In this document: positions 5,496-29,335 of the stretch, one piece after another
Numbering within the stretch: the first letter of the stretch is position 1
How the letters are laid out: every line of letters begins with the position of its first letter
Source: Maribacter antarcticus DSM 21422
GTDB lineage: Bacteria; Bacteroidota; Bacteroidia; Flavobacteriales; Flavobacteriaceae
Assembly: GCF_000621125.1 (NCBI RefSeq)
Contig: NZ_JHZC01000011.1
Location: 1-64,000, forward strand
Direction: 5' to 3'
Length of the DNA: 64,000 nucleotides
Translations under genes and position numbers: made by a program
The notes under the pieces: generated by a model
Told to the model about the DNA's origin: nothing
The model's input: the letters and a program-made list of their open reading frames with translations, nothing else
Databases searched by the model: none

Positions 5496-5530
5496 AAAAA
5501 AGAACGGCCTCGCATTTCTACGAAGCCTTT
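5496..5530 (-). terminator. Displaced tRNA-Asn terminator
   Basis: Read on the minus strand, a hairpin (GGCTTCG, 8-base loop, CGAGGCC; one mismatch) is followed by GTTC and six Ts. It lies immediately downstream of the tRNA-Asn 3' fragment, where an original tRNA terminator would be. This supports the idea that 5496-5583 is the old 3' flank of a tRNA-Asn gene split by integration. Confidence 0.6.
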
Positions 5531-5540
5531 GCCGCTTTTA

Positions 5541-5583
5541 GCTCCACCTCTGGACTCGAACCAAGGACCCTCTGATTAACAGT
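5541..5583 (-). repeat. tRNA-Asn 3' fragment: probable attachment site (att) of the island
   Basis: This is the 3' half of tRNA-Asn (anticodon arm from ACTGTTAATC through T-arm and acceptor 3' strand). Bases 5551-5583 are identical over 33 bases to 29272-29304 in the intact tRNA-Asn; the remaining acceptor part differs by one substitution and one deleted base. Similarity stops abruptly after AGT on the side facing the integrase remnant. Same orientation as the intact gene, so the two copies are direct repeats 23.7 kb apart, the arrangement left when an element integrates at a tRNA 3' end. The direct repeat is seen; integration is inferred. Confidence 0.75.
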
Positions 5584-5654
5584 GCGATTATTTACCTTTT
5601 TCATTCGTTTTCATTTCTCTCAACCTCTCGAAACCCTAGTCTTCACTTGTTTTA

Positions 5655-6718
5655 ATGCGTTTGCACCAAAAGTGCCATTTGTTTCACTTTGCGTCACCCC
5701 TTAATAGCAAAATCATGGTAAGCAACAAACTAAAACTGAAGCCTAACACCCACTTGGACGGGAAGCATTCCATCATCTTACAAGTGCTAAAAGACCGTCA
5801 GAAAAAGAGTATCGCTACCGGACTCTTAGTGAAAAAAGAGCGATGGGACGATAAAGCGCATTATTTTAAGACAAGACATCCGAATGCGATGCAAAACAAT
5901 TGCCTTTTGGACACCATAAAAATTAAGGCCCGGAATATCATCTCAGAATATGAAATAAACGATATTGATTTCACCTTAAATGAGTTTGAAAGACGCTTCT
6001 GATTTGGTTCTAAAAGATGTAAAATAGACCTCTTCGGATTTTAGGAATCTTTTGTTAAGGATTTGATTCTTTCAGGAAGAACAGATTATGCGCGTAATAA
6101 CCATGATACTATTCGTTCTCTAAAACGGTTTTATAAAAAACCAGTTTTACACATGCGTGAAATCAATGTGACCTTCTTAGATAAGTACGAAGTCTTTTTA
6201 AGAAGTAGAGGTGGCACCAATGGTGGTATTGCAGTTTGTATGCGAAGCCTTCGTATTATCATTAATTTAGTGATACGTATAGATTTGATAAAACAGAACC
6301 TCTACCCTTTTCATAAACACAAGATATCAAAGCATAGAGGTAAACGAATTAAGCATCCCTTAACAATCGCAGAAATAGCGTTTTTTAAAAATGTAGATTG
6401 TGAAGAAGATATCCAGTACAGCAATACTAAAAATTACTTTCTATTCAGTTTTTATACCCGAGGTATAAATTTTACAGCTATAATACGTCTTAGATGGTCA
6501 GAAATAATCAATCAAAGGGTTACCTACGACGGGCTAAAACACAGGGCAATTTCTCTCTAAAGATTCTTCCACCTTTTAGAGAGGTCCTAAATGATTACAA
6601 TAAGAATAGGAGGGACACCAACTATGTCTTTCCAATGTTACTCCAAGATGTTTTGATACCCATACAAATTGAAAATTATAAACAAAAAATTCCGGGACAC
6701 TACAATAAATTACCGTAG
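5655..6718 (+). pseudogene. Decayed tyrosine recombinase (integrase)
   Basis: Three frames together spell a Bacteroidota phage-type integrase. Frame one (ATG at 5715, MVSNKLKLK) has the arm-binding domain (GLLVKKERWDDKAHYF) and stops at 6002. A second frame (from 6063) has the SAM-like core-binding domain (RNNHDTIRSLKRFYKK, EINVTFLDKYEVFLRSRGG) and the start of the catalytic domain (FYTRGINFTAIIRLRW), then shifts near 6530 into a third frame (LKILPPFREVLNDYNKN) that ends at 6718. The C-terminal box with the catalytic H-x-x-R and tyrosine is not found downstream. It starts about 70 bases from the tRNA-Asn fragment, the usual place for the integrase of a tRNA-targeting element. Confidence 0.85.
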
Positions 6719-6899
6719 GTTCCATCTTCAGCGAGGCCCTTTCAATCGAGTATTATTTATAATTTCAAAATCAGCGATTACTTGGGTTATTGGGAGAAGT
6801 CAGCGTTAATACAAATATTTGGTTGATTAATTTTATCTCGTTTGGTTTTCGCAGTTTCGGTAATAGACACATAACACACGTTTAGTGTAAACGCTTGTT

Positions 6900-8417
6900 T
6901 TAATCTCTTTTGTAGTCGGTGCTTTCTCCACTTTTACTATTCTTGGGTGGAAATATTTTTGATACGACATACCCTACAATCATTGCTAAAGCAAAGGAAG
7001 GAGCTAGCACATCTAATTCTTTAAGATATAGGTCTATTCCTTCAATATTTACAAATACAAATTTGAATAATATCACTGACGTGAACCCAGTAATCATTGA
7101 AGAAATAGCTCCTTTTTCAGAATAGCCCTTCCAGAAAAGAGATAAAATAATTACAGGACAGAAGGTTGCGGCAATTCCAGACCAGCCAAATACCATAATC
7201 CAGAAAATCTGCCTATCAGGATAAAGGTTGTATAATAAAATGGCTATGCCAAGTGCAACTAGTGCCATAATAACAGTAACAATCCTAGAAAATTTCGTTA
7301 AGTCTTCGTCTTTTAAATCAGGTCTGAATATTTTCTGGTAGAAATCACGCGTAATAGCACTAGAGGCAAGAATGAGTAACGAATCAATTGTTGACATAAT
7401 CGCTGATAGCACAATAGCAATGAAGATTGCAACTAGAATTGTTGGTAAGAACTCATGGGTTAACATACTTAAAACATTTTCACCACCAGTTCCTAACACT
7501 GCTTCTGGATCCTGCCCTTCCTTTGTGAAATAAATTCGAGCAAGAATACCAATCGTTACTGCTGCTGCACCTGTTAGGAGCGTAAAAAGAAGTGCAACCC
7601 ACTTTCCTTTATCAATTTCATTTTCACTTTTAATTGACATAAAACGAACATAAACTTGTGGTGACCCTAAGAAGCCCAATCCAATCATCGAGAAACCTAG
7701 AATCGTAACTAAGTTCATCCACCCGTCATTACTTCTCCCCATTATTTGTGTTAGGGTGGGGTCAATGGCATTTAAGCCCTCGGTTATTCCAATTCCATGG
7801 TCCATAGAGAACCACACAACAATGGGTAGTAAAACCAATCCAAAAAACATTAAAACCCCTTGGAACATATCTGACCAAACCGCAGCTACGAATCCACCAA
7901 TGAAAATATAGACCAAAACAATAGCGAAACCTACTAGGGCGCCTATTCGATAGTCAATATTCAGCAAGGATTCAAACGCGATTCCCGTTACATCCATTTG
8001 AGATGCGACATATATGACAACGAAAACTACTAGTGCAGAAGCAGAGATGATTCGAAGACTGTTTGTAGATGATTTAAAATGACTTTGAAGATAGTCCGGT
8101 ATTGTAATCGCTTCATATTCATCAGACCGTCTTTTAAATCGTTTAGCCATAAATTGCCAGGAGATAAAAACTCCGAGTAATTCTCCAGCAACAACCCAAT
8201 ATCCAGAATAGCCTACCATGGCTCCCATTCCCGTTAAACCTATTAAAAGCCATCCGGATTCCCCCGTTGCTCTAGCAGAAAAGGCAACAGCCCAAAAGCC
8301 CATTTTTTTTCCTCCTAAATAGAAATCACTCATACTTTTGACTCGCCGCGAGGCTAGTATTCCGATTAAAAATAGAATGGAGACATAAATTACTAGGACA
8401 GTGATTTTTGTAATCAT
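6900..8417 (-). CDS. Sodium:solute symporter (SSS family, PutP-like)
   Basis: 505 residues, about 13 hydrophobic segments. Family marks include the N-terminal DFYLGGKKMGFW, ARATGESGWLLIGLTG in the second core helix, FIGGFVAAVWSDMFQG, and the sodium-site region AIVLSAIMSTIDSLLILASSAI. SSS proteins couple inward sodium flow to uptake of sugars, amino acids or carboxylates; sequence style is nearest PutP, but the substrate cannot be fixed. It is the last gene of the minus-strand catabolic cluster, 163 bases after the cysteine-dioxygenase-like gene. In this context it probably brings in a product or co-substrate of the locus. Confidence 0.88.
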   Translation of the reverse strand: MITKITVLVIYVSILFLIGILASRRVKSMSDFYLGGKKMGFWAVAFSARATGESGWLLIGLTGMGAMVGYSGYWVVAGELLGVFISWQFMAKRFKRRSDEYEAITIPDYLQSHFKSSTNSLRIISASALVVFVVIYVASQMDVTGIAFESLLNIDYRIGALVGFAIVLVYIFIGGFVAAVWSDMFQGVLMFFGLVLLPIVVWFSMDHGIGITEGLNAIDPTLTQIMGRSNDGWMNLVTILGFSMIGLGFLGSPQVYVRFMSIKSENEIDKGKWVALLFTLLTGAAAVTIGILARIYFTKEGQDPEAVLGTGGENVLSMLTHEFLPTILVAIFIAIVLSAIMSTIDSLLILASSAITRDFYQKIFRPDLKDEDLTKFSRIVTVIMALVALGIAILLYNLYPDRQIFWIMVFGWSGIAATFCPVIILSLFWKGYSEKGAISSMITGFTSVILFKFVFVNIEGIDLYLKELDVLAPSFALAMIVGYVVSKIFPPKNSKSGESTDYKRD

Positions 8418-8580
8418 TATGTGTTTTTGATTATCGCTATTGAGATAGTATTCTTTTAAAGAGCAATTGGGAATGGTTTGGTGCGCTACTCCGTTTTGGC
8501 TAAACTAGGTTTAATCCCGTTTAGGTTCGGTTAGCAGCATATTTATTTTCAACAAATAGGACTTTTATTATGTACTATGT

Positions 8581-9168
8581 TTACGTTTTTTTTAACGAAA
8601 CAAACTCAAATGCATTCTCCAGAATCTCTTTAAAATGCCCCGTATTTAAACTCCAATTTGCTGTTTTTGCTTGTTTACTTAAAATCCCCACTTGACCATT
8701 TTCTAAATTAAAAATTTTCATTCCTTCAAAACTGTGAATAGCTGGATAGTAAAAATGTAATGTGATTGCCCTTTTGGTTTTAGAGTTATTGCGAAGTTTA
8801 TGGATAATACCATCAGGCTCAGGAGTCAAACCATCCCTCTCGTATCTGTCAATTGAGTATTCTAAGAGTTTATTATTATCAAACTTATAGGAGACATTAT
8901 CCAATTCTCCTTCAAGAACCCAAACGTATCCAAACAAACCTTTATGATGGTGAACAGCACTTTCTACCCCTGCCGGCCAATTTATTAGTATACATTCGAA
9001 TGGGTCAACTGTTAATATATTTCTTCCATAATCACCTATATTTTCTGGCGCATTGATGAATGCATGGTAATTGATACTATCTATATGTATTGCCTTGATA
9101 AATTCACCTAAGGTGTTGAAATTGACGTCAATTTCAAATGACTTGATTTTTTCAATAAGCTCCTTCAT
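8581..9168 (-). CDS. Cysteine-dioxygenase-like cupin protein
   Basis: 195 residues with the cupin pattern of cysteine dioxygenase: Y47-G-R49 (the Y-x-R carboxylate-binding pair), iron ligands H73 and H75 in AVHHHKGLFGYVWVLEGE, third ligand H123 in GIIHKLRN, and Y140/Y141 where the catalytic tyrosine lies. G80 stands where eukaryotic enzymes have the cysteine of the Cys-Tyr cross-link; bacterial enzymes usually have glycine there. These are non-heme iron enzymes oxidising a thiol to a sulfinate. The retained arginine points to a cysteine-type rather than mercaptopropionate-type substrate. Its place between a sugar-lyase-like lipoprotein and a symporter is odd for simple cysteine breakdown. Confidence 0.8.
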   Translation of the reverse strand: MKELIEKIKSFEIDVNFNTLGEFIKAIHIDSINYHAFINAPENIGDYGRNILTVDPFECILINWPAGVESAVHHHKGLFGYVWVLEGELDNVSYKFDNNKLLEYSIDRYERDGLTPEPDGIIHKLRNNSKTKRAITLHFYYPAIHSFEGMKIFNLENGQVGILSKQAKTANWSLNTGHFKEILENAFEFVSLKKT

Positions 9169-9300
9169 ATTTTATGGAAGATTAAATAAATTTAATATTA
9201 TTGCCTGTAAGTTGTTCTTTTACGGCTAGTTGTGTTGTTAAAACTAAGTTAGTAAATAGAAAACGAACAAGAGGGTAAGCCACCATATATACTGGTTGGT

Positions 9301-11949
9301 TTATTCAATATTCTCTTGGTCCATCCAATACAATAAGTAAGGTATGTTGTACGCATGAGTCCATCCAAATACGCGAAGACCTTGATTCGTCTGCCAATTA
9401 GTAAAACGCCCTTTACTTTCTGGAAGGTTTGATATTTTCAAAAGATCCTCACTATATTTTTTTGAATCAGTATATTCTTCTGATAATTTTTGTAATTCAC
9501 CAACCTTTAAAACCTCTGCCCTTGCCAAGGCTTCTTCTAAATATCCTTTTTCACCACTGAATTCATATCCAAGAAGTAAGGGATAAATAGTGGCTAAATA
9601 AGATTCCATTTCATGATTTAATGGCGGCACATCCCTAACCCATCTGGCATGATTTAATAGCGCTTTTCTGACCTTTTCATCATTGAATATTTGTTGATAC
9701 TTATAGAGGCCTTGAGTTACATAGGGTTGACTATAGCCATATCTATCTAATAATAGATTCCCTCCCTGTCTTTCTTGGAATTCTAGCATTAAACTCACCC
9801 TTTCATCTAATTCCTTTTTATACTTCTGTAATTTGGTTGCATCATAAAGTTCCACAAGATTAAGAACGGATAAGTACAATCTACGCCCTCTTAAATCGTG
9901 TTCGCCCCATATTCTGTTAAGGTATGTATCTCCCGTCATTTTGGCAACTTCCAAAGCCCTATGATCAGCAGAAAGATAATAAGATGCAATCCAACCCTGA
10001 ATCCAAACATGCGCGCTTAATAAGGCATACCAATGTTCGTTTGCGTGCCTTCTCCCAATCCCTAAATAAGGGGTTGATTCTGGTTCGTTCTCATAATTCC
10101 AAAAATCAATAGCATCATTATTCGCACCATAATATGTCCGCTTTTTAGGCCAATGAATGTTATCTACATCCATTGTATGTCTACTCATTGCTTGAGCCAT
10201 ATTAAAATATTTTGCATCTCCAGTACGCATAAAATTCGTCCAAAGCATAAAATCAACCGTGGGTTCATTATTGGTCCACTGTACCCAACGATCATTAAAG
10301 AAATAACTCTTCCCATCCCCATAATTGAACATACCGTACCAAGGTTCATGCTTTTGATTGTAGCCCCACCATTGATATCTATACTGCAAAGCATTCTCAA
10401 ACTTTGGGAATTTGGTTGACGCGGGCGCCATGTTACCATAAACTTTAGAACCCGTATACCATTCAGGTGCAGCATGGGCTACCGGACTGTCAAGAACATA
10501 GTCCATTTTCTGACCCACTTCTTTTGTATCTATATTGTCATGGAAATAATATATAAATTCCGTGGTCTTGGTGATGCCTTGAGCAAAATTTGCAAGCATT
10601 CCACCATCTTGTTCGGTATTGTGCCTTTCAAAGCTCATAGGACCATTTTCTAATGGCCATATACTGCCTGTAAGTATTCCAGATATTGGATCAATTTCAA
10701 TACCCTTTGGATATTCCTTTAAAAAATTCTTTATTCCAACTCCTACACCTCTTTTCCCGTCAGCAATATTTACCCATCCTTTTGCTCTTTCAGATATCGC
10801 CACATTAGTCTCCCCTTTAGAAACTGTAGCTTCGAATACGAGTTCACTATTTAACTCCTTGTTATCTTCTTTTTTAAATCCGTTACGGTAAGCACTTCTT
10901 AAGCTTGTACTTTTCCTTCTTGCAGGGCCTTTTTGTAAAAGTTTAACGGCTTGTTCCTCGTTCAAAGAGACTTCCTGCAAAATAGTTTTAGCTTGGTCAT
11001 CTTGCCAGCTTCCTTCATTTATTGGAATAGATACGTTTGCGTTTTCGTCAAGATGGTACTTAAGTTGAATTCCACTAGCTGCTATTTGGTCATTTGGCTG
11101 CGTCCATCCTAGGTCCTCCTCGGTATCTTCAGGCAAAATGCTTTTATTCTGGGTGGCTATAGAGTGATGTTCCCCTTCCTGTATCTTATGTTTATCCGGC
11201 ACCCCAGTATAGGTCAATGTATGCAATACTTTGATATAACTTTTACCGGCATAAGCATGCAGCAACATGGTAAATGGTGATAGATTATTATCTGGCCTGT
11301 TATACCTATAAGTCCCCTCTATTCTAAAAATATTATGCATAGGCCCTGAACCCTTTTCCCTAAAAACTTCGTTGATAACTGCTTTAGAAGCATCTATCCC
11401 CGCATCATCCAAAAGATCTAGAAAAGAACCTCTATTTTCCTCTGGTGAAGAACCAATAAGTTCACGCTCTTCAAATGCCCCATTTTTGTCAGAATCTAAA
11501 TAAACTTCATCTAGAAAACCATTACCCATTTTATGAATAGAGAAGGAAAGTGGTCCCGTATTAACATCTATACCTCCTTCAGGTCGCATATTGTTTGTTG
11601 AAACAATTTTTTCTTCAGAACGTATTGGTACAATTGAATCCCCATATTCTAGCACATAATCCGATGCCTCTTCCGAAAAGAAGAAAACCCACACCCATTT
11701 TATACTATCATCTACTGGACCCCAGTTTGCTACCTCAGTTGTCTGACAAGGAATCTCAATGCCTTCAGAAGTTAGTAAACGTATATGGTCAGGTGAATAG
11801 AGTTCTCCCTTTGGAAATGGTATCCCAAGCGTAACTGGCGCTCCCAAGGTATTATTTTCAATGGTGATTTTTACTTGTTTACCAGATTCTTTAGTTTCAC
11901 ATGATGTTACTAAAAAACATGCGATAAGTATTGTTATAATTCTTCTCAT
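9301..11949 (-). CDS. Lipoprotein of the YetA/exo-rhamnogalacturonan-lyase type
   Basis: 882 residues with a lipoprotein signal ending VTSC (C17). The N-terminal region has the RIFT-barrel-like pattern I associate with PcRGLX/YetA proteins (NTLGAPVTLGIPFPKGEL, then GPVDDSIKWVWVFF), followed by a beta-sandwich-like middle and a helical C-terminus with repeated W/Y-rich segments (KHEPWYGMFNYGDGKSY, RRHANEHWYALLSAHVW) fitting an alpha/alpha toroid. PcRGLX is a PL26 exo-rhamnogalacturonan lyase, so a lyase or hydrolase acting on acidic oligosaccharides at the cell surface or in the periplasm is likely. Catalytic residues were not identified. It follows the ROK gene by 15 bases, within one operon. 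The family is from memory of domain order; substrate unknown. Confidence 0.65.
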   Translation of the reverse strand: MRRIITILIACFLVTSCETKESGKQVKITIENNTLGAPVTLGIPFPKGELYSPDHIRLLTSEGIEIPCQTTEVANWGPVDDSIKWVWVFFFSEEASDYVLEYGDSIVPIRSEEKIVSTNNMRPEGGIDVNTGPLSFSIHKMGNGFLDEVYLDSDKNGAFEERELIGSSPEENRGSFLDLLDDAGIDASKAVINEVFREKGSGPMHNIFRIEGTYRYNRPDNNLSPFTMLLHAYAGKSYIKVLHTLTYTGVPDKHKIQEGEHHSIATQNKSILPEDTEEDLGWTQPNDQIAASGIQLKYHLDENANVSIPINEGSWQDDQAKTILQEVSLNEEQAVKLLQKGPARRKSTSLRSAYRNGFKKEDNKELNSELVFEATVSKGETNVAISERAKGWVNIADGKRGVGVGIKNFLKEYPKGIEIDPISGILTGSIWPLENGPMSFERHNTEQDGGMLANFAQGITKTTEFIYYFHDNIDTKEVGQKMDYVLDSPVAHAAPEWYTGSKVYGNMAPASTKFPKFENALQYRYQWWGYNQKHEPWYGMFNYGDGKSYFFNDRWVQWTNNEPTVDFMLWTNFMRTGDAKYFNMAQAMSRHTMDVDNIHWPKKRTYYGANNDAIDFWNYENEPESTPYLGIGRRHANEHWYALLSAHVWIQGWIASYYLSADHRALEVAKMTGDTYLNRIWGEHDLRGRRLYLSVLNLVELYDATKLQKYKKELDERVSLMLEFQERQGGNLLLDRYGYSQPYVTQGLYKYQQIFNDEKVRKALLNHARWVRDVPPLNHEMESYLATIYPLLLGYEFSGEKGYLEEALARAEVLKVGELQKLSEEYTDSKKYSEDLLKISNLPESKGRFTNWQTNQGLRVFGWTHAYNIPYLLYWMDQENIE

Positions 11950-11964
11950 TTTTATAAAAATTCT

Positions 11965-12810
11965 TTAGAGACAAAGTGCAGCAGCCCCCAGTATCGGAGA
12001 ATCTGCCAAATCAGATTTTTCTATTTTTAAATGTTCTATTTGTTTTTGATAAGCAAACGAATCAAGTGATTCTTTTATAGCTTCTTTATAGAAAGGATAT
12101 GCCTTGCTTATGGAGCCTCCGAGAATAATTGCTTCTGGCGCATATAGATATAAAATAGATTTAATGGCCTGCCCTAAATGAAAGCCATATTCGTTAAATG
12201 CTTTTAAGGCAATTGAATCATCTTCAAGCGCTTTTTTAAATAGGCTCTTTGCGGATTGTCCATGTGTTTTATCAAAGAAAAAGCTACCCGCATAATGCTC
12301 CATAATGCCGTCTTTATAAGGAAGCATACCTACTTCCCCAGCGCCGCACAAAACACCGTTATACAACTTATGATCTATGATAATACCCATGCCGAGTCCG
12401 GTACCTAAGGAAAGGGCCACACAATTAGCGTACTCTTTTGCCTTACCAAAGTGCTTTTCACCCAATGCAAAACAATTGGCATCATTATTTATGTATACCG
12501 GAACCTGATAGTTCTGCTCAACCATTTCTTTTAGCGGAACGTTTTTCCATGCAGGTATATTCTGCACATCATAAACAACACCTGTTTCTGGATTAACCAC
12601 GGCCGGAACTCCTATTCCTATAGCTTCAACCGAATCTGTCATTATTTCATCTATGGTTTGAAAAAGTTTTGCCAGTATGACTTTTTCGGAATTATCACGT
12701 GCTACTTCAACCAAATAACTTTGAAGTATCTCGTTGCCAAATATCCGTCCAGTTTTGATATTAGTACCACCAATATCAACACCTATAACCTGCGGTTTCC
12801 CTAGATTCAT
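11965..12810 (-). CDS. ROK-family sugar kinase
   Basis: 281 residues. N-terminal phosphate loop GVDIGGTNIKTG (10-21), GIGVPAVVNPETG, the catalytic aspartate in INNDANCFALGE, and the ATP-binding LSLGTGLGMGIII. ROK kinases phosphorylate hexoses or N-acetylhexosamines. The usual cysteine/histidine zinc motif (CxCGxxGC) is missing: after GAGEVGMLPYKDG the chain goes to IMEHYAGSFFF. Many Bacteroidota ROK proteins share this loss. Its start overlaps the end of the FHS permease by four bases, so import and phosphorylation of one sugar are coupled. A PIG-L deacetylase two genes upstream makes an amino sugar a reasonable substrate, but that is inference. Confidence 0.88.
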   Translation of the reverse strand: MNLGKPQVIGVDIGGTNIKTGRIFGNEILQSYLVEVARDNSEKVILAKLFQTIDEIMTDSVEAIGIGVPAVVNPETGVVYDVQNIPAWKNVPLKEMVEQNYQVPVYINNDANCFALGEKHFGKAKEYANCVALSLGTGLGMGIIIDHKLYNGVLCGAGEVGMLPYKDGIMEHYAGSFFFDKTHGQSAKSLFKKALEDDSIALKAFNEYGFHLGQAIKSILYLYAPEAIILGGSISKAYPFYKEAIKESLDSFAYQKQIEHLKIEKSDLADSPILGAAALCL

Positions 12811-14069
12811 ACGTCTTTCGATAAACTAAAAGTCTTATTAGTGACCAATGGTTTGGCCCAAAAACCTATGGTTAGTATAAAAATCAAGGGTATAATAAGA
12901 AAAAACATTCCAGCTTTAAGCGTCATCATCTCACCTAAACCTCCAACGATAAATGGTATTATAGCCCCACCAGCAATTCCAGTGCATAAAATACCCGATA
13001 ATGAACCGTGGTGCTCTTTGACTGAGTTAAGCGCCAATGAAAAAATAATCGAATACATCACAGAGATAAAAAATCCAACCATTGGAAAACCTATCAGTGC
13101 CACTTTTGAGGAGCCTGTTAATGCTAGTATAAGACTGAGTATGGTAATTACAGTTGCCCAAATGAGTAATCTACGGCTATCCATAAACTTTATCAATACC
13201 AGTCCTAAAAGGCATCCTACCGTCAACATTGCCCAAAAATAAGACACAGTATCTGCGCCCACCGTTTGTGGGTCTAAACCGTGGTATTGAGACAAGAATT
13301 GAGAAATCCAATTACCAACCCCTTGCTCAGTTCCTACATAGCAAAAGATTCCCAGAAAATATAACAAGGTCCATTTGTTCTTTAAGAGATCCCAATAGGA
13401 ACTGCTATCTCCTGCTTTTTCCTCTTCAGTTTTTTCAAACTTTGGATACTTGGTAAAAAAGACGTAAAAAAATAGAAAAAGTGCTATTGCAGCAAACACG
13501 ATATACAGTGATGCCCATGGCAGATTTTCTGGCACATATCCCCTTAGGACATCTCCTAACGTACCACTTGATTCATTTTCTGTATTTACCAAATATTTAT
13601 AGAGGTATGGACTTAAAAAAGATGCCGCACCAAAAACTAACTGCGCCAGTACAGAATTAAAAGCAAAATGTTCCTCTCCACCTGCTACCCGTAGCATTGG
13701 GTTTATGATCACCTGCAAAACGGCCATACAACAACCTAAAGTGAACAGTGTTACACTAAAAGTTCCATAACCAGGGAATAGAGCAAAACCCAAAGAAGCC
13801 AAAGTCATGACAAAGAATGATACAGAGAGTAATACTTTTTCACTATACTTTTCGGTTAGGAACCCTGCCGGTATTGACATAATCCCGTACGCTATAAAGA
13901 ACGTGAACGGTAAAAAGCCAGTGGAAGTAAGGCTTAAATCAAAACTATCCTTAACATCTACAATAATCGAATTAAGTATGTTGGTAATGAAGGATATTAC
14001 GAAAAATACCAGCATTACCAATCCAATAATATGGTAATACCTTTTTGCAGTAGGCTTACTATTTTCCAT
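12807..14069 (-). CDS. FHS-family sugar/proton symporter (MFS)
   Basis: 420 residues with about 12 membrane segments in two halves joined by a charged loop (KYPKFEKTEEEKAGD). The opening FVISFITNILNSIIVDVKDSF and GFLPFTFFIAYGIMSIPAG, with CCMAVLQVIINPML in segment four, match the fucose/glucose-galactose (FHS) branch of MFS, which imports monosaccharides with protons across the inner membrane. It overlaps the ROK kinase by four bases and follows the PIG-L gene by 61 bases. It should import the monosaccharide released by the locus; which sugar is not visible. Confidence 0.85.
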   Translation of the reverse strand: MENSKPTAKRYYHIIGLVMLVFFVISFITNILNSIIVDVKDSFDLSLTSTGFLPFTFFIAYGIMSIPAGFLTEKYSEKVLLSVSFFVMTLASLGFALFPGYGTFSVTLFTLGCCMAVLQVIINPMLRVAGGEEHFAFNSVLAQLVFGAASFLSPYLYKYLVNTENESSGTLGDVLRGYVPENLPWASLYIVFAAIALFLFFYVFFTKYPKFEKTEEEKAGDSSSYWDLLKNKWTLLYFLGIFCYVGTEQGVGNWISQFLSQYHGLDPQTVGADTVSYFWAMLTVGCLLGLVLIKFMDSRRLLIWATVITILSLILALTGSSKVALIGFPMVGFFISVMYSIIFSLALNSVKEHHGSLSGILCTGIAGGAIIPFIVGGLGEMMTLKAGMFFLIIPLIFILTIGFWAKPLVTNKTFSLSKDV

Positions 14070-14130
14070 TATAAGTTTGGTTGGTTATTAAAATTATGAA
14101 TGATATTGGGAAAGGTTGGCGACCCACGAG

Positions 14131-21365: not shown

Positions 21366-21516
21366 CTAAAAAAATTAAGTCTCCTTATTTAAAAGACGTA
21401 GATTTTATTAAAAACCCTTACTGTTAATTCAATTTTTTAATAAATTAATTTGGAATACTAAGGAAATAGCCCGTGTACCTTATTAACACATAAACTAAGA
21501 AATAATTCATACCAAA

Positions 21517-22083
21517 TTAGAAGAATAGGGATAACTGTGTTCTAAGTCTTTTTATGGCTTTGGACATATGTGCTTCAACAGTCTTAATAGAAATATGCAG
21601 CTCTTCTGAAATTTCTTTATACCTAAGACCATCCTTTTTACCCATTATAAATACTTTCTTACATCGTTCGGGTAAATTTTCAATTTCTACTTCCATCTGT
21701 TTCAATCTTTCATCAAAAAGTGAGGAATCTGTCTCTAAAATTTCTAAATGTGCCTCCTGCTTAAGGCTATCTAAGAATGCTAATTCTTTCTTTTTTTTTC
21801 TTTGTGTATCTATAAAAAGATTAAGCGCAATTACAAAAAGGTATCTTTTAAGGCTGTCTTCTTTAATGTGAATTATTTCTTTCTTGTCCCAAAATTTTAT
21901 AAAAGCCTGTTGTGCAACTTCTTCGGCAACCCTAAAATCTCCAGAAACAGCTGTAATATAGTTGCAAAGGTCTTGGTAGTAGCTTTTGAAAAAAAAACCA
22001 TAGGCCTCTTCAGAGCCTTTCTTTAGCTCTTCAATGAGAATTTTTTCATTTACGTATTTTGGTTCGGTTGACACAACAAACAA
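21517..22083 (-). CDS. ECF RNA polymerase sigma factor (FecI-like)
   Basis: 188 residues: sigma region 2 (YGFFFKSYYQDLCNYIT, VAEEVAQQAFIKFWDKK) and region 4 (CKKVFIMGKKDGLRYKEI, ISIKTVEAHMSKAIKRLR). It matches the Bacteroidetes RpoE-like FecI group that pairs with FecR. The frame has no early ATG: TTG at 22083 or GTG at 22074 are the choices, so the start is uncertain. First gene of the catabolic cluster; it should direct transcription of the SusC gene and possibly the rest. Confidence 0.9.
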   Translation of the reverse strand: MFVVSTEPKYVNEKILIEELKKGSEEAYGFFFKSYYQDLCNYITAVSGDFRVAEEVAQQAFIKFWDKKEIIHIKEDSLKRYLFVIALNLFIDTQRKKKKELAFLDSLKQEAHLEILETDSSLFDERLKQMEVEIENLPERCKKVFIMGKKDGLRYKEISEELHISIKTVEAHMSKAIKRLRTQLSLFF

Positions 22084-22918
22084 TTTAAATCAAGCTATAA
22101 GAACAAGGTCCAAAAAGAGTATAACTTTGTATTTAAAAGACTTTACTTCCACTGATTAAGACTATATGTTCCACGAAATTAATTAGAATAAAATTTAAGA
22201 CTATCTGTAAAATATGTTCACCAACTCTTTTAATTGATGTCATCATCTTTAAAGACCGAACTATAGATGTATACTCCAACAACTTATCTTAAAAGTATAA
22301 AAATAAAAATACATACAAACTGTTTTCTAATAATTTAGATTCTTAGTTTTTTAATTTTTATTGTATCAATTAAAAATCATCATAATATTTCACAAATCGT
22401 CACCAGTATAATCAGCCTATAAACAGAACTCTCTATAAACAAAGGAATAGTGATTGATGTGTGATTCTTACCAAGAACAACTGGAATACTAAAAGAACCG
22501 CTTTATCCGTATAATAAATATGTTAGGGAACCATCAAGAAGAAACAAATGTCATAAAAAAGACGCTAATTTGAATGTAAGCCCCTGCATGTATCGCCTGT
22601 CTAGGAACGTATTTATACTAATTTAATCCAACCAGTTCCTTAGGTAGTAAAACCAGTTTTCAGCTTATTTTAAAAAATAATGAGAACTGCTACCTAAGTA
22701 GTAGTTCTATCTTTAGTAAACGAGTAAATTCAAAAAGTAAGTTGTGTTGAAATACTTACCAAATCTATTTCCTTTTCAATCACAAACAAGAGGAAAAGCA
22801 GAGGTTACAGGTAATTAAACATCGCAAAGAAAAAGAAGGGTAGCTACGACAATACCACGTTCCATAGTAATCTTAAAAAAATCAATTCTTATATGTCATT
22901 GTCAGTAATGCGTTTGTT
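22084..22918. other. Gene-free stretch upstream of the sigma gene
   Basis: AT-rich sequence with no convincing frame on either strand, ending at a TolC remnant. It should contain the promoter of the sigma/FecR/SusCD cluster near 22090-22150, but no clear TAnnTTTG box was found. Confidence 0.4.
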
Positions 22919-23259
22919 CAGAAGCAGGAAATCCAAATCGCTAAAAACGAAGTCTGTGAGAGAAAGGGTGAATACTTACCCTATGTAGGATTTAAGGGTG
23001 GTGCAGAAGTCGTAAAACCAGGTCGCTATACCCGAAACGGAGCTGTGGAAGCCACGACCGATATCGAGCCAGACAAGGAATTTCCCAATCCGCTACCAGA
23101 TTACATGGCTGGTCTACAAGCCCCTTGGGAACTTGATGTTTGGAAAAAGTTACGGAACGCTAAAAAAGCAGCGGTATCCTGATATTTAGCGAGTATCGAA
23201 GGAACTTTATGGTAAGCAATCGTTTGAATTATATAGATGCTTCACAATTATTTGAGTAG
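22919..23259 (+). pseudogene. Fragment of a TolC-type metal-efflux outer-membrane protein
   Basis: One frame reads QKQEIQIAKNEVCERKGEYL, PYVGFKGGAEVVKPGRYT, FPNPLPDYMAGLQAPWELDV and WKKLRNAKKAAVS, then a TGA; a shift restores YLASIEG, and a second shift restores MVSNRLNYIDASQ. The order matches the middle of TolC-family proteins found with CusA/CzcA-type efflux in Bacteroidota (GEYLP-x-V, W-E-L-D-V-W-K-K-L-R-N-A). Both ends are missing and there are at least two frameshifts, so this is a relic inside the island. Confidence 0.7.
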
Positions 23260-23745
23260 CATGGAGAGATATAACACGCTTCTTATTTCAATAATTATCC
23301 TGTAAACTAAAATTATCATTTCATTTGCAACAATAGGTATTCATATTTTAGGAATGGATTTTAAGTATCACGTTTTACAGTTCCATTAAATGGCCGTTTT
23401 ACGAAACTAGGTTGAAAAGCATTTCGAATAAATGATTCCGGTTGCGTTCGTTATTATTTTTCATAGTTCTATTCATTCACCTTTTACGTAACTAAAAAGT
23501 TCATTCAATATAAATACCTTCATAAAATTTGTGGGGTATTAGTTTAATTTGAGCGTTGAAGTCTTTAAGCTGCAAAGAAAAATTGCTTCATGTCCCAATT
23601 ATATCCAAATAAAAAAAGCATCAGGAGTGTAAACGCTAGGAATAGGTATTCTTGCTGGGCTCCCCCCTCTTGATGTTGCACCAACCAGGATAGCTATCGG
23701 GGCTCTTATTAACAGCCGTAAACTATAAGTTTACGTTTAGGACTA
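23260..23745. other. Gene-free stretch
   Basis: No convincing frame, RNA or repeat. It lies between the TolC relic and the DUF5777-like gene and probably contains decayed sequence. Confidence 0.4.
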
Positions 23746-24636
23746 TTACTTATTTCGCTTTAAATGTAGAATATATGTAGCATTGAACCCAAAGTGTAAA
23801 TTACCATCGTTAAAATTAAAATTTGTCCTGGTTTTGGTGATAAAGGCATCTTCGACCATGGCCCTTGCATTGGTCAATTGAAATTGCAAGATAATATCCC
23901 CTACTTCCCAATTAACTCCTAATGCAAAAGCATTATACGTATTTATAGTTTCTAAAGGATTGGCAACATAATAATACTCGGACACAATGGACACATGATG
24001 TCCTATTTTGTAACGTCCGCCAAGACCGATGGCAAATTGCGTTTGTGGATCTTCCTCGAACAAAGCCGAATTTCTGTGTATCAGGGTAGGTGAAACTTGT
24101 AATGAAAAGTTTGGTGTAAATTTTCTAGCCATTAATAAATGACTCGTAAAAGAGAGACGGTCACCAAAACTATCGAAGGCATAAATATTGTCTGTTGCCT
24201 TGCTGCGGTAAGACATGTTTTGGAACAAAGTAATACTTAACGGGGATCCGCCTTTGTTGATTTGTTGTTGTACTAAACGGTATTTTAGGAAACCATCGAA
24301 AATGCCATCCCAAGTGGTACCTCCTGCGCCTAAGGTTAATTTATCATTTATGCCATATTCCAGACCTATTCTGCTGCTCATGCGATCTGCGACAAAGCTT
24401 TGTGTTCTTGGTGCTGGCGTATTCCAAAACCGGTTCATTACATGAAACTCAAGAAGGCCTTGTTTTCGCGTCTCCACAGAATGGCCAATGGAAATCCTAG
24501 TCGTTTTAAAGGTGGCTTGGGCCTTTAGTGGTTCGTTTGGATACTCTTTATTTATGGTTTCTAAAAGGTCTTGAGATTGTACAAAAGCCATTCCAAAAAC
24601 AAAACATAGTAAGAAAAAAAGCTTTTTATTTTTCAT
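23746..24636 (-). CDS. DUF5777-like outer-membrane barrel protein
   Basis: 296 residues from the ATG at 24636 (MKNKKLFFLLCFVFGMAF, signal peptide cut near VQSQ); an earlier in-frame start at 24681 would put 15 extra residues before the signal and is less likely. The mature part alternates polar and hydrophobic residues as in a barrel, with ISIGHSVETRKQGLLEFHV near the N-terminus, as I recall for DUF5777. The gene overlaps the end of the YceI-like gene by 11 bases, and OB-fold and CHRD genes lie upstream on the same strand, so the four probably work together at the envelope. Role unknown; in other genomes this family tends to accompany respiratory or heme-related lipoproteins (from memory). 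Confidence 0.75.
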   Translation of the reverse strand: MKNKKLFFLLCFVFGMAFVQSQDLLETINKEYPNEPLKAQATFKTTRISIGHSVETRKQGLLEFHVMNRFWNTPAPRTQSFVADRMSSRIGLEYGINDKLTLGAGGTTWDGIFDGFLKYRLVQQQINKGGSPLSITLFQNMSYRSKATDNIYAFDSFGDRLSFTSHLLMARKFTPNFSLQVSPTLIHRNSALFEEDPQTQFAIGLGGRYKIGHHVSIVSEYYYVANPLETINTYNAFALGVNWEVGDIILQFQLTNARAMVEDAFITKTRTNFNFNDGNLHFGFNATYILHLKRNK

Positions 24637-25174
24637 AGGGTAGGTATTCGAATTTAAATGAAATGGATATCGTTTTTGCAATATTCGGAGCTAACAATGC
24701 GGGAACCTTAATATCGAAATCTTCAATGGATATATCAAATTCGCCAGAGAGTATATAATTACCCAGAGTGTTCTCTATATCTGTTTTTATTTCTACATTT
24801 TTAGTGATGCCATGTATGGTCAAAGGACCTTTAATTACTTTGGTCTGTGTACCCACTATAGATGAATCAAAATCTTGGATAATCCCTTCAAATGTTGCTT
24901 TTGGGTAGATATCCGATTCAATATAACTTTCGTTAAAATGTTCTTGCATCAATTCTTTTTCAAAAACAAATGTTCTCATGAGCATGCTCACCGCTATTTC
25001 GTTTTTCGCTAAGTCAATAATACTTAAAACCTGATTATTATCCGCCTTTATGTCTTCTACTGTAGTGTACGAAAAGAATGAAATTTTCCCTTGTTTAGTA
25101 ATGTATTGCTCCGTTCTAGGGCTAAGACTTGAATAAAGTATAAAGATAAGAATGATGGTGCAAGTTTTACTCAT
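24626..25174 (-). CDS. YceI-family periplasmic lipid-binding protein
   Basis: 182 residues with an N-terminal hydrophobic segment (CTIILIFILYSSLS). The core follows the YceI lipocalin-like pattern: GKISFFSYTTVEDIKADNN, the MRTFVFEKELMQEHFNESYI stretch, YPKATFEGII, and GPLTIHGITKNVEI. YceI proteins bind isoprenoid or fatty lipids in the periplasm. It overlaps the OB-fold gene upstream by eight bases and the DUF5777-like gene downstream by 11, so translation is probably coupled. A quinone or other polyprenoid ligand is possible but not shown. Confidence 0.82.
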   Translation of the reverse strand: MSKTCTIILIFILYSSLSPRTEQYITKQGKISFFSYTTVEDIKADNNQVLSIIDLAKNEIAVSMLMRTFVFEKELMQEHFNESYIESDIYPKATFEGIIQDFDSSIVGTQTKVIKGPLTIHGITKNVEIKTDIENTLGNYILSGEFDISIEDFDIKVPALLAPNIAKTISISFKFEYLPYEK

Positions 25175-25604
25175 TGTCTTTGGGGTTAAGTATAATACAG
25201 TCTAAAAAAATAGCATCCATAAGAAAGCCTTTACAAATGCCTTTTAATACGATATTTTGCCCTAACTCTAATTTTTTTATGCTCTTATACTGATTTGATT
25301 GCATGTCGCAAATTACACAAGAAAAATCTGTTTCTCCTTGCAATAATACGGTATAGCGATTGTTTAAAAAAGTGATGTCCTTGATGACACCCGCTATCTC
25401 TATAGTTTTTTCAATATACTCTGAATTTGCAGAACTCTCATTGTTTAAGAAGGAAGAAATTAAGCTTTCAGATGAGATTTGAATTTCTGTATGTGCAGCC
25501 GCTATATTTACGTTATTTTCTCTTGTGATATAAAAGTAAAGCATGCTGAAAACCAATACAAAGACTGCTACTGTAGCCAGTAAAAATTTTGATATTTTTT
25601 TCAT
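25167..25604 (-). CDS. Membrane-anchored OB-fold (tRNA_anti-like) protein
   Basis: 145 residues: one N-terminal membrane segment (LLATVAVFVLVFSMLYFYI, residues about 8-26) then a beta-rich domain with EIAGVIKDI, YTVLLQGETDFSCVICDM and GQNIVLKGICKGFLMDAIFL. This matches the tRNA_anti-like OB-fold proteins of Bacteroidota; no nucleic-acid role should be assumed for an exported copy. Four cysteines in the domain (two in SCVICDM, two in KGICKGF and FLDCII) could form disulfides or bind metal. It overlaps the YceI gene by eight bases. Function unknown. Confidence 0.7.
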   Translation of the reverse strand: MKKISKFLLATVAVFVLVFSMLYFYITRENNVNIAAAHTEIQISSESLISSFLNNESSANSEYIEKTIEIAGVIKDITFLNNRYTVLLQGETDFSCVICDMQSNQYKSIKKLELGQNIVLKGICKGFLMDAIFLDCIILNPKDNE

Positions 25605-25737
25605 TTTATCTTCTCTTGAAGTTGCTAATTAAAAAATCTAAAATCAAATCTTATTTTTGTTGTCTGCACGGTCTTTCCTAACACAGGAAATTTAAGATAT
25701 GTATTTTGTTGATTTTATTTGGCATACTACCTAATAA

Positions 25738-25772
25738 AAATCGTGGGGCGTTTAAAAAACGTCCCACGATTA
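25738..25772 (-). terminator. Terminator after the CHRD-cupredoxin gene
   Basis: A near-perfect hairpin (ATCGTGGGACGTTT on the minus strand pairing with AAACGCCCCACGAT around a short A/T loop) lies about 30 bases after the stop and is followed on the minus strand by a T-run. It would end the CHRD transcript before the OB-fold gene, so the downstream trio may have its own promoter or depend on read-through. Confidence 0.75.
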
Positions 25773-25797
25773 AAACAAGCAAGCTTAACTATAAAAT

Positions 25798-27378
25798 CTA
25801 GTTTGTAATCGTAATTGTACCGGTCATAAAACCGTGAAACTCACAATTGTAATATAAGGTTTCAGGTGCATCGGCTGGGACCGTGAACGTGATTGTTCCG
25901 GATACTGCTCCGTTGTTCGCTACCCCTGCATTATATATGTTTGAGCTTCCCGCACCCTGAACTGATTTTAGCAAGAATGGATGACCTGGAGTATCCACAT
26001 TGAAGGTATATGTACTTCCTCTTTTGAAGGTGAAATTTGGGTTGCTTGAACCAGAAAGTCCTTCTCCGTTAAAAATATATGCAGTAACTCCACTATTGGT
26101 TACATCATATGTTTTTGATTCTGTATTTCCAGAACTATCATTGCCTGCATTAGCGCCAATATTTCCTTGAGCAACTAACGTAGCTAAATCCTCATCACTT
26201 AAATGAATATTAACATAAGCGTTTAGGCTCAAAATTTCTGTATAGGTAATCGCAGCGCCACCAACCAAGACCGCTATTTGTGTTTTACTGATTCCAGTAT
26301 CCCCGTTTACCGCATTTAATCCTACGATAATGTTACCCGTAGTGGCAATATCATTTTCATGAATGTGTGCAGGGTGCCTTCCACCTGCTGATGTTCCTGT
26401 AAGCATAATCGTGGCTAAAGTAGTTTCATTTACACGTTCTGCGAACTCAATTGTTCCGTTGATTCCTGGAACGTCTTTTTCGGTTAGTTCATAGCTCGTC
26501 GTTTTACCCGTCAATTCATTCTGGCCTATATCGCCTTGGGCAACTAACGTAGTTAATTCGTCCGCGCTTAAATGAATGTTGATATAACCATTATAGTTCA
26601 ATACCTCATCATATCCGAATGCAGTACCATTATCTAAAGCGGCAACATTTGTCTTACTCATACCTGTATCCCCGTTTACTGGATTGAAAGAGAATGCAAT
26701 ACTACCACCTTCTATTGCCGTATTCATATGAATATGACCAGGATGTACTCCGCCGTCTGGTGTATTGTTTAATTGAATAACCGCAAGCGCTTCTCCGTTT
26801 ACTCTTTCGTAAAAAGTAGCCATACCATCTATTTCAGGAACAGCAACACTTCCTAGTGCATACGCTTTAGAAACATCGGTAAGGTCATTTTGACCTATAT
26901 CTCCTTGTGCAACAATAGTAGCTAACTCGTTATCGCTTAAATGCACATTAATATATCCATCAAAATCAAGTAATCCTTGATAGGTGACAGCCGTGCCGTC
27001 GTCTAAAGCACTAAAAGTAGTTGTGCTTTTTCCAGTAGCTCCATCTACAGGTGTTAACGATAGTGCAATACTACCCCCTTCTGCGGCGGTGTTTACGTGA
27101 ATATGTGCTGGATGCAAACCACCTTGGGGTGTATTTTGCAATTCCAGTTCTATACGTAAGGTAGCATCACTACTTTCAATAAAATTGGCAGTTCCTAATA
27201 TTCCAGAACCTTCTACTGAACCCAAATCGTATATTTTAGAATTCAATTCTGTTGGTGAATCATCAACCGGTTCAATATAACCGTCATCACTGTAACCATT
27301 GTTATCGTTACTACAACTCATAAAGGCAAACGGTATAGCCATTACCAATAGTAAAAAACTTTTACTTACACATTTCAT
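25798..27378 (-). CDS. Lipoprotein with three CHRD repeats and a C-terminal cupredoxin
   Basis: 526 residues; lipoprotein signal with C22 (FAFMSCSND). Three repeats follow, each carrying an HPxHIH motif (89-94, 212-217, 335-340) and a later N-[VI]-H-L (144, 267, 390). Both marks recur at exactly 123 residues. The HPAHIH/GYINVHL pattern is that of CHRD domains. After a Gly/Ser/Asn linker (about 410-422), residues 425-526 form a plastocyanin-like domain with a full type-1 copper set: H466 (TPGHPFLL), C512, H515 and M518 (NCEFHGFM). So it is a surface-anchored blue-copper protein carrying three histidine-rich domains. It is transcribed away from the sensor-LytTR gene. Electron transfer or copper handling is inferred; CHRD function is unknown. 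Confidence 0.88.
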   Translation of the reverse strand: MKCVSKSFLLLVMAIPFAFMSCSNDNNGYSDDGYIEPVDDSPTELNSKIYDLGSVEGSGILGTANFIESSDATLRIELELQNTPQGGLHPAHIHVNTAAEGGSIALSLTPVDGATGKSTTTFSALDDGTAVTYQGLLDFDGYINVHLSDNELATIVAQGDIGQNDLTDVSKAYALGSVAVPEIDGMATFYERVNGEALAVIQLNNTPDGGVHPGHIHMNTAIEGGSIAFSFNPVNGDTGMSKTNVAALDNGTAFGYDEVLNYNGYINIHLSADELTTLVAQGDIGQNELTGKTTSYELTEKDVPGINGTIEFAERVNETTLATIMLTGTSAGGRHPAHIHENDIATTGNIIVGLNAVNGDTGISKTQIAVLVGGAAITYTEILSLNAYVNIHLSDEDLATLVAQGNIGANAGNDSSGNTESKTYDVTNSGVTAYIFNGEGLSGSSNPNFTFKRGSTYTFNVDTPGHPFLLKSVQGAGSSNIYNAGVANNGAVSGTITFTVPADAPETLYYNCEFHGFMTGTITITN

Positions 27379-27414
27379 TGTTTAATGTTTTGATATTAAT
27401 ATTAAACAAATGTA
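27378..27414 (-). promoter_or_regulatory. Promoter box and perfect inverted repeat before the CHRD gene
   Basis: TTGTTTAAT (27378-27386) and ATTAAACAA (27401-27409) form a perfect 9-base inverted repeat with a 14-base spacer, ending at the start codon. On the minus strand TACATTTG (27407-27414) matches the Bacteroidota -7 element TAnnTTTG and overlaps the distal arm. A protein bound here would block or control the promoter. The LytTR regulator encoded next door is the obvious candidate, although LytTR sites are usually direct repeats. Confidence 0.55.
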
Positions 27415-27635
27415 TATTTACTTACGCTTTGTAGACTACTTAATGTTCGGGAAGAGGAAAATTTAGCTTTAAAAGTGAATATAACGGACTGAGTTATCTC
27501 TACTTTGCTCAAAACTGTACTAATTGAATCTGACTCGTATCCTGAATATTTTGAGTTATGGGACACAACGAAGTACTCTAGTCAATAATGTTATCTTTAC
27601 CCACCCTTAGCCCATCTAAAACCTAATGGTATTGT

Positions 27636-28721
27636 GTGATGCGAAAAGACAGATTATACCTCTTTACTTTTTTTGCGCTTACCGTAATCGTTTTTTTGAT
27701 TTCGATTATCGCGGTACAGTTTTTCGTAAAAGCGAGCAACGACAAAGTTTTTGAACTACAAATTGAAAATAGCCAACGTGAAGCAAACGAAATTTCACAG
27801 TTAATTGAATCTCAATTAGCGAACAATACCCCAAAACAGGTCATCATAGATAATCTACAACAAGCCATTCAAGGCACCCATACTGAGACTAGTTTTATAT
27901 CTACGATAGATTGGTCTGGAAAACAAATTACGCATCCAGATAAAACAAAGGTGGGTACCAAATTGGACTCGGAGAAGGCATCTATTTTTTCAATGAATGA
28001 CGATGTAACACCCGAAAACCTCAGTGCCATTTTGGCTAAAAGTAATGAAGCAACAGCATCTGAAATTATTGTTCTTGTACCGGTAGCGAACTCCGATTGG
28101 ATTATTGCTGCCCATGCAAATATGCAAAAGACACTGCGCCAGGTTACTAATTTGAAGCAACGTTTTTATTTCATATTCAGTATCATGGGTGTGATTGTCG
28201 TGCTCTCTTCATTTTTTGCCGTTAGAATACTGGGAAGTGCTTACGAAAAAAGTTTAGAGGTCACGAATAAAAATCTTGAGAAAGAACTTGTAAGCACCTC
28301 AAAGTTTAATAGTGATTTGGTTGCCTACCAACAAAAAGTAGACGGAGAAGAGATATCTGAAGAAAAAAATGCTGTTGACCCAAGCAAGAAACGGATTTTA
28401 ACCTATCATAGAGACGAACTGCTCACCATACCTATAGAAACCATCGCCTATATTTACGTGGACCATACCATAACCTACGTCGTTTGTTTCGATGGCAAAA
28501 AATCAACAACCAATTCTAGTCTAGACGAATTATACACAACGCTAGATGCTGTGAAATTCTACAGGGCCAATAGACAGGTTATTATTGCTGTACCGGCAAT
28601 CGAAAAAATAATAAAGTATGGTAATAACCAACTTAAAATTTTAGTGCAGCCTAATTCTGAAATAGAAATTATCATCAGCAAAAACAAGGCCTCCGAATTT
28701 AAGCAATGGCTTAACCTTTAG
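27636..28721 (+). CDS. Membrane-anchored sensor with LytTR DNA-binding domain
   Basis: 361 residues: membrane segment 1 (about 9-31), an extracytoplasmic sensor region (about 32-175) of Cache/dCache-like style (DNLQQAIQGTHTETSFISTI, TIDWSGKQITHP, LVPVANSDWIIAAH), membrane segment 2 (about 177-197), a coiled linker, then a LytTR domain (about 253-361; PIETIAYIYVDHTITYVV, FYRANRQVIIAVPAIEKI). There is no receiver or kinase domain, so it would sense outside and bind DNA directly from the membrane. It is divergent from the CHRD-cupredoxin gene across about 257 bases, which suggests that it controls that gene. Preferred start: ATGATG near 27636-27639, right before RKDRLYLF. Confidence 0.85.
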   Translation: MMRKDRLYLFTFFALTVIVFLISIIAVQFFVKASNDKVFELQIENSQREANEISQLIESQLANNTPKQVIIDNLQQAIQGTHTETSFISTIDWSGKQITHPDKTKVGTKLDSEKASIFSMNDDVTPENLSAILAKSNEATASEIIVLVPVANSDWIIAAHANMQKTLRQVTNLKQRFYFIFSIMGVIVVLSSFFAVRILGSAYEKSLEVTNKNLEKELVSTSKFNSDLVAYQQKVDGEEISEEKNAVDPSKKRILTYHRDELLTIPIETIAYIYVDHTITYVVCFDGKKSTTNSSLDELYTTLDAVKFYRANRQVIIAVPAIEKIIKYGNNQLKILVQPNSEIEIIISKNKASEFKQWLNL

Positions 28722-28991
28722 CCATATCGGTTTCTATCTTTTTTGTATAAATCATTATTACCCGCGGATATGTGCCATTAAAGGAACACCGTATACATTT
28801 GTAATTAATTTTATTAGTTGAGAATAAATACGGTATAAAAATAAGTGGGTAAATCTACATTCATAATATCGAAAATGGACTGTCGAAAGAAGGAAAGAGA
28901 ATTTTGACCAAACGGAATTTGAAGAAAATAAACACCAAAAAAACTTCTTTAATCTATACTTGTAATCAATTTAACCTTTTTCATTATCAAA

Positions 28992-29216
28992 ATGATGACA
29001 GGACTGATTTCAAAATCTATAGGACTTGTTGCCGATAGTTTCGTTTATGGCATTAGTTTGTTAGCCGTTGTTGGAACACTACCTAAGAAAAAACAAATTA
29101 CAAAACTTGCTGGGTCTTTTTAAATTATACATGCGATTATTGGATTTGTAGAAGGTGTTTTAAAAAGTACCCTTAGTACCTATAATGCTCGTATTACCCC
29201 AGCATATACTGACTAA
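28992..29216 (+). pseudogene. Remnant of a cation diffusion facilitator (CDF) transporter
   Basis: ATG ATG ACA opens MMTGLISKSIGLVADSFVYG and ISLLAVVGTLPKKKQITKLA, hits TAA, and continues in frame with IIHAIIGFVEGVLKSTLS to a TAA at 29214-29216. The segment order (SIGLVADS, then F-V-Y-G-I-S-L-x-A-V, K-K-K-x-I, then a hydrophobic IIGFVE) matches the first helices of CzcD-like CDF proteins with the central part deleted. The key metal-site aspartates cannot be complete. Together with the TolC relic it suggests that the island once carried a metal-efflux set. Confidence 0.6.
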
Positions 29217-29260
29217 AAACAAAAATCCAACCTAACTAAGTAGATTGGATTTTGTTTTTG
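29216..29260 (-). terminator. Terminator after tRNA-Asn
   Basis: AAAATCCAA and TTGGATTTT form a 9-base stem with T-rich flanks on both sides, directly downstream of the tRNA on the minus strand. It differs from the terminator-like hairpin beside the tRNA fragment at 5496-5530, as expected if this one arrived with the island. Confidence 0.7.
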
Positions 29261-29261
29261 G

Positions 29262-29335
29262 CTCCCCCTCTTGGACTCGAACCAAGGACCCTCTGATTAA
29301 CAGTCAGATGCTCTAACCAACTGAGCTAAGGAGGA
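29262..29335 (-). tRNA. tRNA-Asn (GTT)
   Basis: 74 bases. Acceptor stem TCCTCCT/AGGGGGA (one G-T pair), D-arm TAGCTCAGTTGGTTAGAGCA, anticodon arm with CTGTTAAT giving anticodon GTT, and T-arm with GGTTCGAGTCC. CCA is not fully encoded. Its 3' part is duplicated at 5541-5583, so the gene is probably the attachment site of the island to its left, with the intact copy restored by the element. Confidence 0.95.

Follow-up and report, generated by a model that had tools for sequence, protein, structure and literature searches.

A probable eroded tandem array of integrative elements behind the tRNA-Asn gene of Maribacter antarcticus

Introduction

In the genome of Maribacter antarcticus DSM 21422 a transfer RNA (tRNA) gene for asparagine and a broken copy of its 3' half enclose 23.7 kb of DNA, and the question that this locus raises is whether the enclosed DNA was acquired at once or in several steps. 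We analysed a window of 64,000 nucleotides (nt) that forms the start of contig C9 (NZ_JHZC01000011.1) of this 4.85-Mb genome. A preliminary description had taken the locus for one island inserted in tRNA-Asn with host DNA on its left. Our analysis does not support this and points to an eroded tandem array of at least three integrative elements, called R1, R2 and L in order from the tRNA, behind a single tRNA-Asn; we put the probability of this reading at about 0.78. Genomes, contigs and loci are given below, where they have to be told apart, by our own handles (G, C and L with a number; G000 is M. antarcticus itself).

Results

The intact tRNA-Asn(gtt) lies on the minus strand at 29259-29335 (ARAGORN; Rfam RF00005). 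It is the sole tRNA that ARAGORN found in the window, and a search of positions 1-32000 against Rfam at gathering thresholds returned nothing besides it. A 3' fragment of the gene, here called the left copy, lies at 5541-5583, also on the minus strand. The two share 33 of 33 bases (5551-5583 against 29272-29304) in the orientation of tRNA-Asn, and a 38-nt version of the pair is 95% identical. A 24-nt probe from the repeat, with up to 3 mismatches allowed, was found at these two places in the window only, where 100 shuffles gave an expectation of 0.00. Beyond the identical run the left copy differs by one substitution and one deletion (CTCCACCTCTGG vs CTCCCCCTCTTGG). Each copy is followed on its 3' side by a terminator-like hairpin. 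The one at the fragment (5496-5540, minus strand) has its stem at 5527-5506 with a T-run after it and a fold z-score of -2.9, and the one at the intact tRNA (29210-29253, minus strand), which is of the AATCCAATC..GGTTGGATT type, has its stem at 29253-29222 and a z-score of -5.7. Such a pair, an intact tRNA and a likewise oriented copy of its 3' part at opposite ends, is expected of a tRNA-targeted island, and the 33-base repeat is an integrase attachment core.

The gene adjoining this core is a decayed tyrosine integrase (5715-6709, plus strand) whose two alignable pieces show 85% and 82% amino acid identity to the integrase of an element in a relative, G014. Three pieces were submitted to a domain scan: one matched Arm-DNA-bind_5, one matched Phage_int_SAM_5, and the third (6530-6709) gave no domain match; none of the pieces scanned matched a catalytic domain. 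Against the intact G014 protein of 403 residues the alignment runs over residues 1-271 and 273-332. A weaker tblastx match extends to 6752 and the remaining C-terminal part has no alignment. The preliminary description had reported the paired tRNA copies, the substitution and deletion in the left one, its hairpin and a decayed integrase beside it, and all of this was confirmed by direct comparison, ARAGORN, folding, the domain scan and alignment.

What lies on the far side of the left copy decides how it should be read. In G014 an element of 24,876 bp (by coordinate subtraction) lies between tRNA-Asn and a second core. The sequence 3' of the G014 tRNA-Asn, comprising a terminator, a gene for a 259-amino-acid protein, a helix-turn-helix (HTH) gene and more, matches window positions 4121-5583 in pieces at 73-86% nt identity, and the opposite end of the same element, with integrase and second core, matches 5513-6709 at 86.6%. 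Since both ends of this element match around 5541-5583, the left copy is an element-element (attP-like) junction and not an edge with host DNA. The terminator at 5496-5540 is thus of the G014 type and element-borne, and beyond it lies L (4121-5495, minus strand), what remains of the module that a G014-type element has on its tRNA side, with the genes of the 259-amino-acid protein (5436-5028), the HTH protein (4874-4566) and a 187-amino-acid protein (4542-4307), all on the minus strand. Another relative, G024, has the same tRNA-side end as L, on two contigs with overlapping ends. Judged from these comparisons, DNA like that left of the fragment would once have been joined directly to tRNA-Asn, as it is in G014 and, through the overlapping contig ends, in G024. 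The check proposed with the single-island claim, a relative in which the left-hand sequence joins the tRNA site directly, therefore came out half as predicted: left-type DNA is joined straight to tRNA-Asn in both relatives, but that DNA is an element and not host. A host origin for the left neighbour was rejected because of its match to the element end of G014 and G024.

A third attachment site, now decayed, lies inside the supposed island at 23715-23578 on the minus strand, near the right end of a stretch (22084-23745) with no open reading frame (ORF) of 90 amino acids or more. It consists of a core-like part (23715-23660), a degraded 3' half of tRNA-Asn, followed at 23658-23578 by the kind of terminator and arm region found in the G015 and G013 elements. 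The latter matches the tRNA-side end of the elements in G015 and G013 over 61 bp at 80%, and that of G006 as well. In a scan of window positions 1-29250 on both strands with 35 tRNA-side ends, the fragment scored 145, the third site 87 and the terminator region of the tRNA itself 70, all on the minus strand; the next-best place reached 49, none of 665 shuffle scores exceeded a maximum of 37, and a control with real sequence (right flank, C8 and C5) reached at most 48 over 372 chunk-strands. The terminator and arms of the third site, taken alone, scored 71, where 500 shuffles gave at most 38. Equally oriented cores with an element-type end each are present at 5.5 kb and, in decayed form, at 23.7 kb, and at the intact tRNA copy the terminator is possibly native.

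With three sites in hand the single insertion can be weighed. One 23.7-kb island inserted once in tRNA-Asn, with everything between the copies as its cargo, would account for the direct repeat and its adjoining integrase, for the accessory content described below and for the joining of left-type DNA to tRNA-Asn in a relative. It would have no inner attachment site, but there is one at 23715-23578; the left copy joins the module of another element where host DNA should stand; and the two ends do not pair, a G014-type integrase end facing a AATCCAATC-type tRNA side. We consider it very improbable.

Tandem elements at the same tRNA-Asn are present in relatives. In G006 a core lies 44.9 kb downstream of tRNA-Asn, with an integrase on one side and a G015-type terminator and arms on the other, and a further integrase-core end follows 21.4 kb beyond it; the sequence compared lacks 21 kb of the former stretch and 14 kb of the latter, and more cores may exist there. 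The integrase genes and cores of this G006 type look undamaged. In G015 an element is followed by a core and then by a second integrase, and the element carries a MobA-type relaxase and a NikA-like protein. The elements of G014 and G015 use the same attachment core as the window, their terminators and arm regions match its two inner sites, and their integrase adjoins the far core and reads away from it, as in the window. Unlike there, the integrase genes are open, the cores are undamaged and the cargo differs; in G014 the integrase moreover stands next to genes for HipA and an HTH protein. At 11 of 37 sites outside the window, tRNA-Asn is followed on its 3' side by perfect arm repeats of 9 bases with a period of 11 bases; at least one pair of sites (L048, L090) has identical sequence. 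As a separate observation, in L092 (G033) tRNA-Asn is followed by a 4.2-kb insertion with a small ORF resembling, by eye, a GIY-YIG endonuclease. No integrase was detected in the insertion, which ends in a partial tRNA 3' copy with a AATCCAATC-type terminator, the same as after the tRNA itself.

The layout of the left copy allows one further explanation. Both arms at the 5541-5583 core belong to the G014 type, as they would in the attP of a free circle, which tells against a junction between two separately inserted elements. The left copy could then be the attP of a circularised G014-type element trapped by homologous recombination in a hypervariable tRNA-Asn region, with the native terminator kept at the tRNA and with R1 and R2 acquired by exchange of hotspot alleles. 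A possibly native terminator fits this explanation, as do relatives with other genes directly 3' of the terminator and no core copy within 20 kb (for example SusCD-type genes in G002). It leaves the third site with its G015-type end unexplained, however, makes a coincidence of the shared orientation and of a position 23.7 kb downstream of the target, and is met by a junction of the same layout in G006. We regard it as improbable.

The content of the region was compared with the conserved surroundings of tRNA-Asn. Matches to rseP were found in 59 of 60 genomes, and 30 loci were fetched, our own included; the closest named rseP loci belong to Maribacter, Zobellia and kin. The order from rseP to tRNA-Asn is conserved, with tRNA-Asn inside the 1.5-kb flank in 29 of the 30 loci, and the sequence 3' of tRNA-Asn varies widely. 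The right flank (29400-47400) has long matches in all 8 relatives compared at the DNA level. The inside gave only patches in the same relatives, namely the SusCD block in G024, CHRD in G011, LytTR/YceI in G032 and short SusC and tRNA matches; these DNA searches scored part of the first-look candidates, no more than 33 or 37 in any genome, and may lack weak matches. Protein searches over 35 congeners, in which every candidate was scored, found the PcRGLX-like gene in 5, always on a contig other than that of their own rseP, and the LytTR gene in 1 (G032). The nearest relative by rseP fragment, G008, gave neither gene, in a genome that is 85% complete, so that absence is not proof. Most of the inside is thus not found in relatives and adjoins a syntenic flank, and the preliminary view of accessory cargo, inserted site-specifically at tRNA-Asn in an event now old and visible as a decayed region, is upheld. 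The composition that was to mark it as foreign gave no support (GC content 0.364 inside against 0.383 in the right flank, with overlapping tetranucleotide distances), and we dropped composition as a sign of origin for lack of a usable signal.

The segment next to the tRNA, R1 (23716-29258, about 5.6 kb), holds a LytTR gene (27636-28721, plus strand), a CHRD gene (25798-27378, minus strand) and tRNA_anti-like, YceI and DUF5777 genes (23746-25604, minus strand). The following segment, R2 (5584-23659, about 18 kb), has its integrase at the far end and contains a polysaccharide utilisation block (9301-22083, minus strand) with genes for a PcRGLX-like protein, a ROK kinase, an MFS transporter, PIG-L, SusD, SusC, FecR and an ECF sigma factor; the first description of the SusCD locus and of the CHRD and LytTR genes is correct. 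Positions 9301-22059 are colinear in G004 and G015 at about 72% identity and partly present in G010 (67-71%) and G012 (81-82%), the G012 block being without the ROK-gene stretch and most of the MFS gene. In all four the block lies on contigs other than those with rseP. The neighbouring symporter and cysteine-dioxygenase-like genes have no DNA match in the 20-kb stretches compared from these four relatives, and the block is therefore likely a unit within R2. R2 itself starts with a G015-type end and finishes with a G014-type integrase end, which suggests that it is a fusion of two stacked elements produced by deletion. The scan of window proteins, which covered part of the ORFs in a window where L runs off the contig, recognised neither a relaxase nor a transfer gene.

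Several further observations concern the surroundings of these segments. From the L module to the contig end (1-4068) lie a methyltransferase, a DUF6686 and a FUR-family gene. The methyltransferase was found in 0 of 35 congeners at E 1e-20 and has two copies in this genome, and the FUR-type gene has a further match elsewhere in it. The cluster as a whole is duplicated at G000:C5:37-4227 (L142) with identities of 95, 79, 79 and 86% in pieces; that copy lies on the 3' side of a tRNA-Ala(ggc), about 590 bp off, and no tRNA-Ala 3' repeat was found around it. Short stretches of window 4180-4294 match G007, G008, G011, G023, G024, G032 and the own genome at 72-92%, and this interval appears to be a dispersed repeat or a conserved motif. 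About 120 bases at 23387-23508, with two TTTTACG-type motifs, recur in G014 (inside its tRNA-Asn element), G018, G016, G021 and G025, where no reading frame exceeds 80 amino acids; they are possibly a regulatory region. The only congener relative found of the LytTR gene lies with YceI and DUF5777 genes at 7516-11547 of L143 (G032:C1), about 1 kb downstream of a tRNA-Arg(acg); partial repeats of the 3' end of this tRNA stand at 7745 and 7924. In two relatives (L040 and L043) a large gene resembling the window SusC (27% identity) and a gene of 494-495 amino acids lie between rseP and tRNA-Asn, across the tRNA from the array. In 6 of 35 regions tRNA-Asn has a biotin-carboxylase gene set on its 3' side, directly, some kb away or behind an element, and such a set also follows the tRNA 3' end in G020. 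In M. antarcticus this operon is on contig C8, where about 19 kb separate it from the contig start; C8 was considered as a possible holder of the outer end of the array and showed no core or element end in positions 1-26000.

Discussion

From an evolutionary point of view the most likely history of the locus is one of repeated insertion. Each element would have entered through its tyrosine integrase, by recombination between the element's attachment site and the tRNA-Asn 3' half, and every later arrival would have been separated from the one before it by a copy of that half. The left copy at 5541-5583 would then be the R2/L junction, read as integrase end, core, and the terminator and module of the next element, and the decayed site at 23715-23578 the R1/R2 junction. 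An array built by repeated insertion would have been trimmed by deletion, and the polysaccharide locus, the LytTR/CHRD unit and an iron-type cluster would have been carried along.

A number of observations weigh against this history. No integrase was found in R1, and a search for an arm-like repeat adjoining the intact tRNA gave nothing above shuffles. The arm repeats seen in relatives are absent at all three window sites. The terminator next to the intact tRNA is possibly native to the host: by a count by eye, the AATCCAATC..GGTTGGATT type stands behind tRNA-Asn in 8 of 35 regions, more often than any other seen in relatives, and R1 need not therefore have been inserted by an integrase. The far copies of G015 and G026 have the same type and those of G009 and G014 do not; it also precedes an integrase in G030 and at the second element of G015. 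(The sequence at 29210-29253 also stands 3' of a tRNA-Lys in the same genome, at L004, G000:C1:1078942.) The core of the third site is weak by itself, with a score of 28 that no shuffle out of 500 reached and one of 24 that 6 of them reached, and next to the strong score of terminator and arms the site is therefore recognised mainly by the latter; its hairpin gave no terminator-like match in the scan and no unusual fold. That the 23.7-kb site is more decayed than the 5.5-kb site misfits the simplest order of accretion and leaves the order of events open. On the outer side, the FUR-type gene (3501-3968), supposedly cargo of L, is matched at the DNA level by all 8 relatives compared (68-73%), the assembly lacks the outer end of the array, the contig ending at window base 1, and no further close copy of the tRNA-Asn 3' half was found in the genome by a search that also missed the 23.7-kb site.

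Tandem islands behind RNA genes are known from other bacteria. In Dehalococcoides several ssrA genomic islands are stacked behind one RNA gene with direct repeats of its 3' end between them; some of these islands are described as lacking an integration module, and the authors suggest that they may be mobilisable in cis and moved with their neighbours by accretion (PMC3146451). The stacking and the RNA-gene 3' repeats are as in our window, but the recombinase there is a serine recombinase and the target transfer-messenger RNA (tmRNA) (PMC3146451), in place of a tyrosine integrase and tRNA-Asn, and the window array, unlike the Dehalococcoides islands, is decayed and carries polysaccharide and iron-type genes. 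In Frankia and Streptomyces two integrase-bearing actinomycete integrative and conjugative elements (AICEs) can share one tRNA gene as a tandem whose integrases may or may not be related, and 9 of 10 elements tested in Frankia excised (PMC3218068). These tandems resemble the window in their stacked integrase elements at one tRNA gene, but AICEs are conjugative (PMC3218068), whereas the window proteins scanned included no recognised transfer gene. We found no literature uniting Flavobacteriaceae, genomic island, tRNA-Asn and integrase, and the region is an addition to the known class of tandem arrays behind RNA genes.

A decayed attachment site inside a large accessory block indicates that the block arrived in instalments and not by a single transfer, and element-type ends, that is a terminator with its arm region, can reveal the site even where the core has become barely readable. 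The same method separates a polysaccharide locus from its neighbours in this genus. One tentative extension, doubtful as yet, is that tRNA-Asn serves this marine genus as a permanent port at which families of tyrosine-integrase elements stack, fuse by deletion and trade cargo across tRNA genes, polysaccharide and iron-type loci entering in this way and becoming fixed as the attachment sites rot. Our results suggest elements targeted to tRNA genes as a route by which polysaccharide loci may reach the chromosomes of marine flavobacteria.

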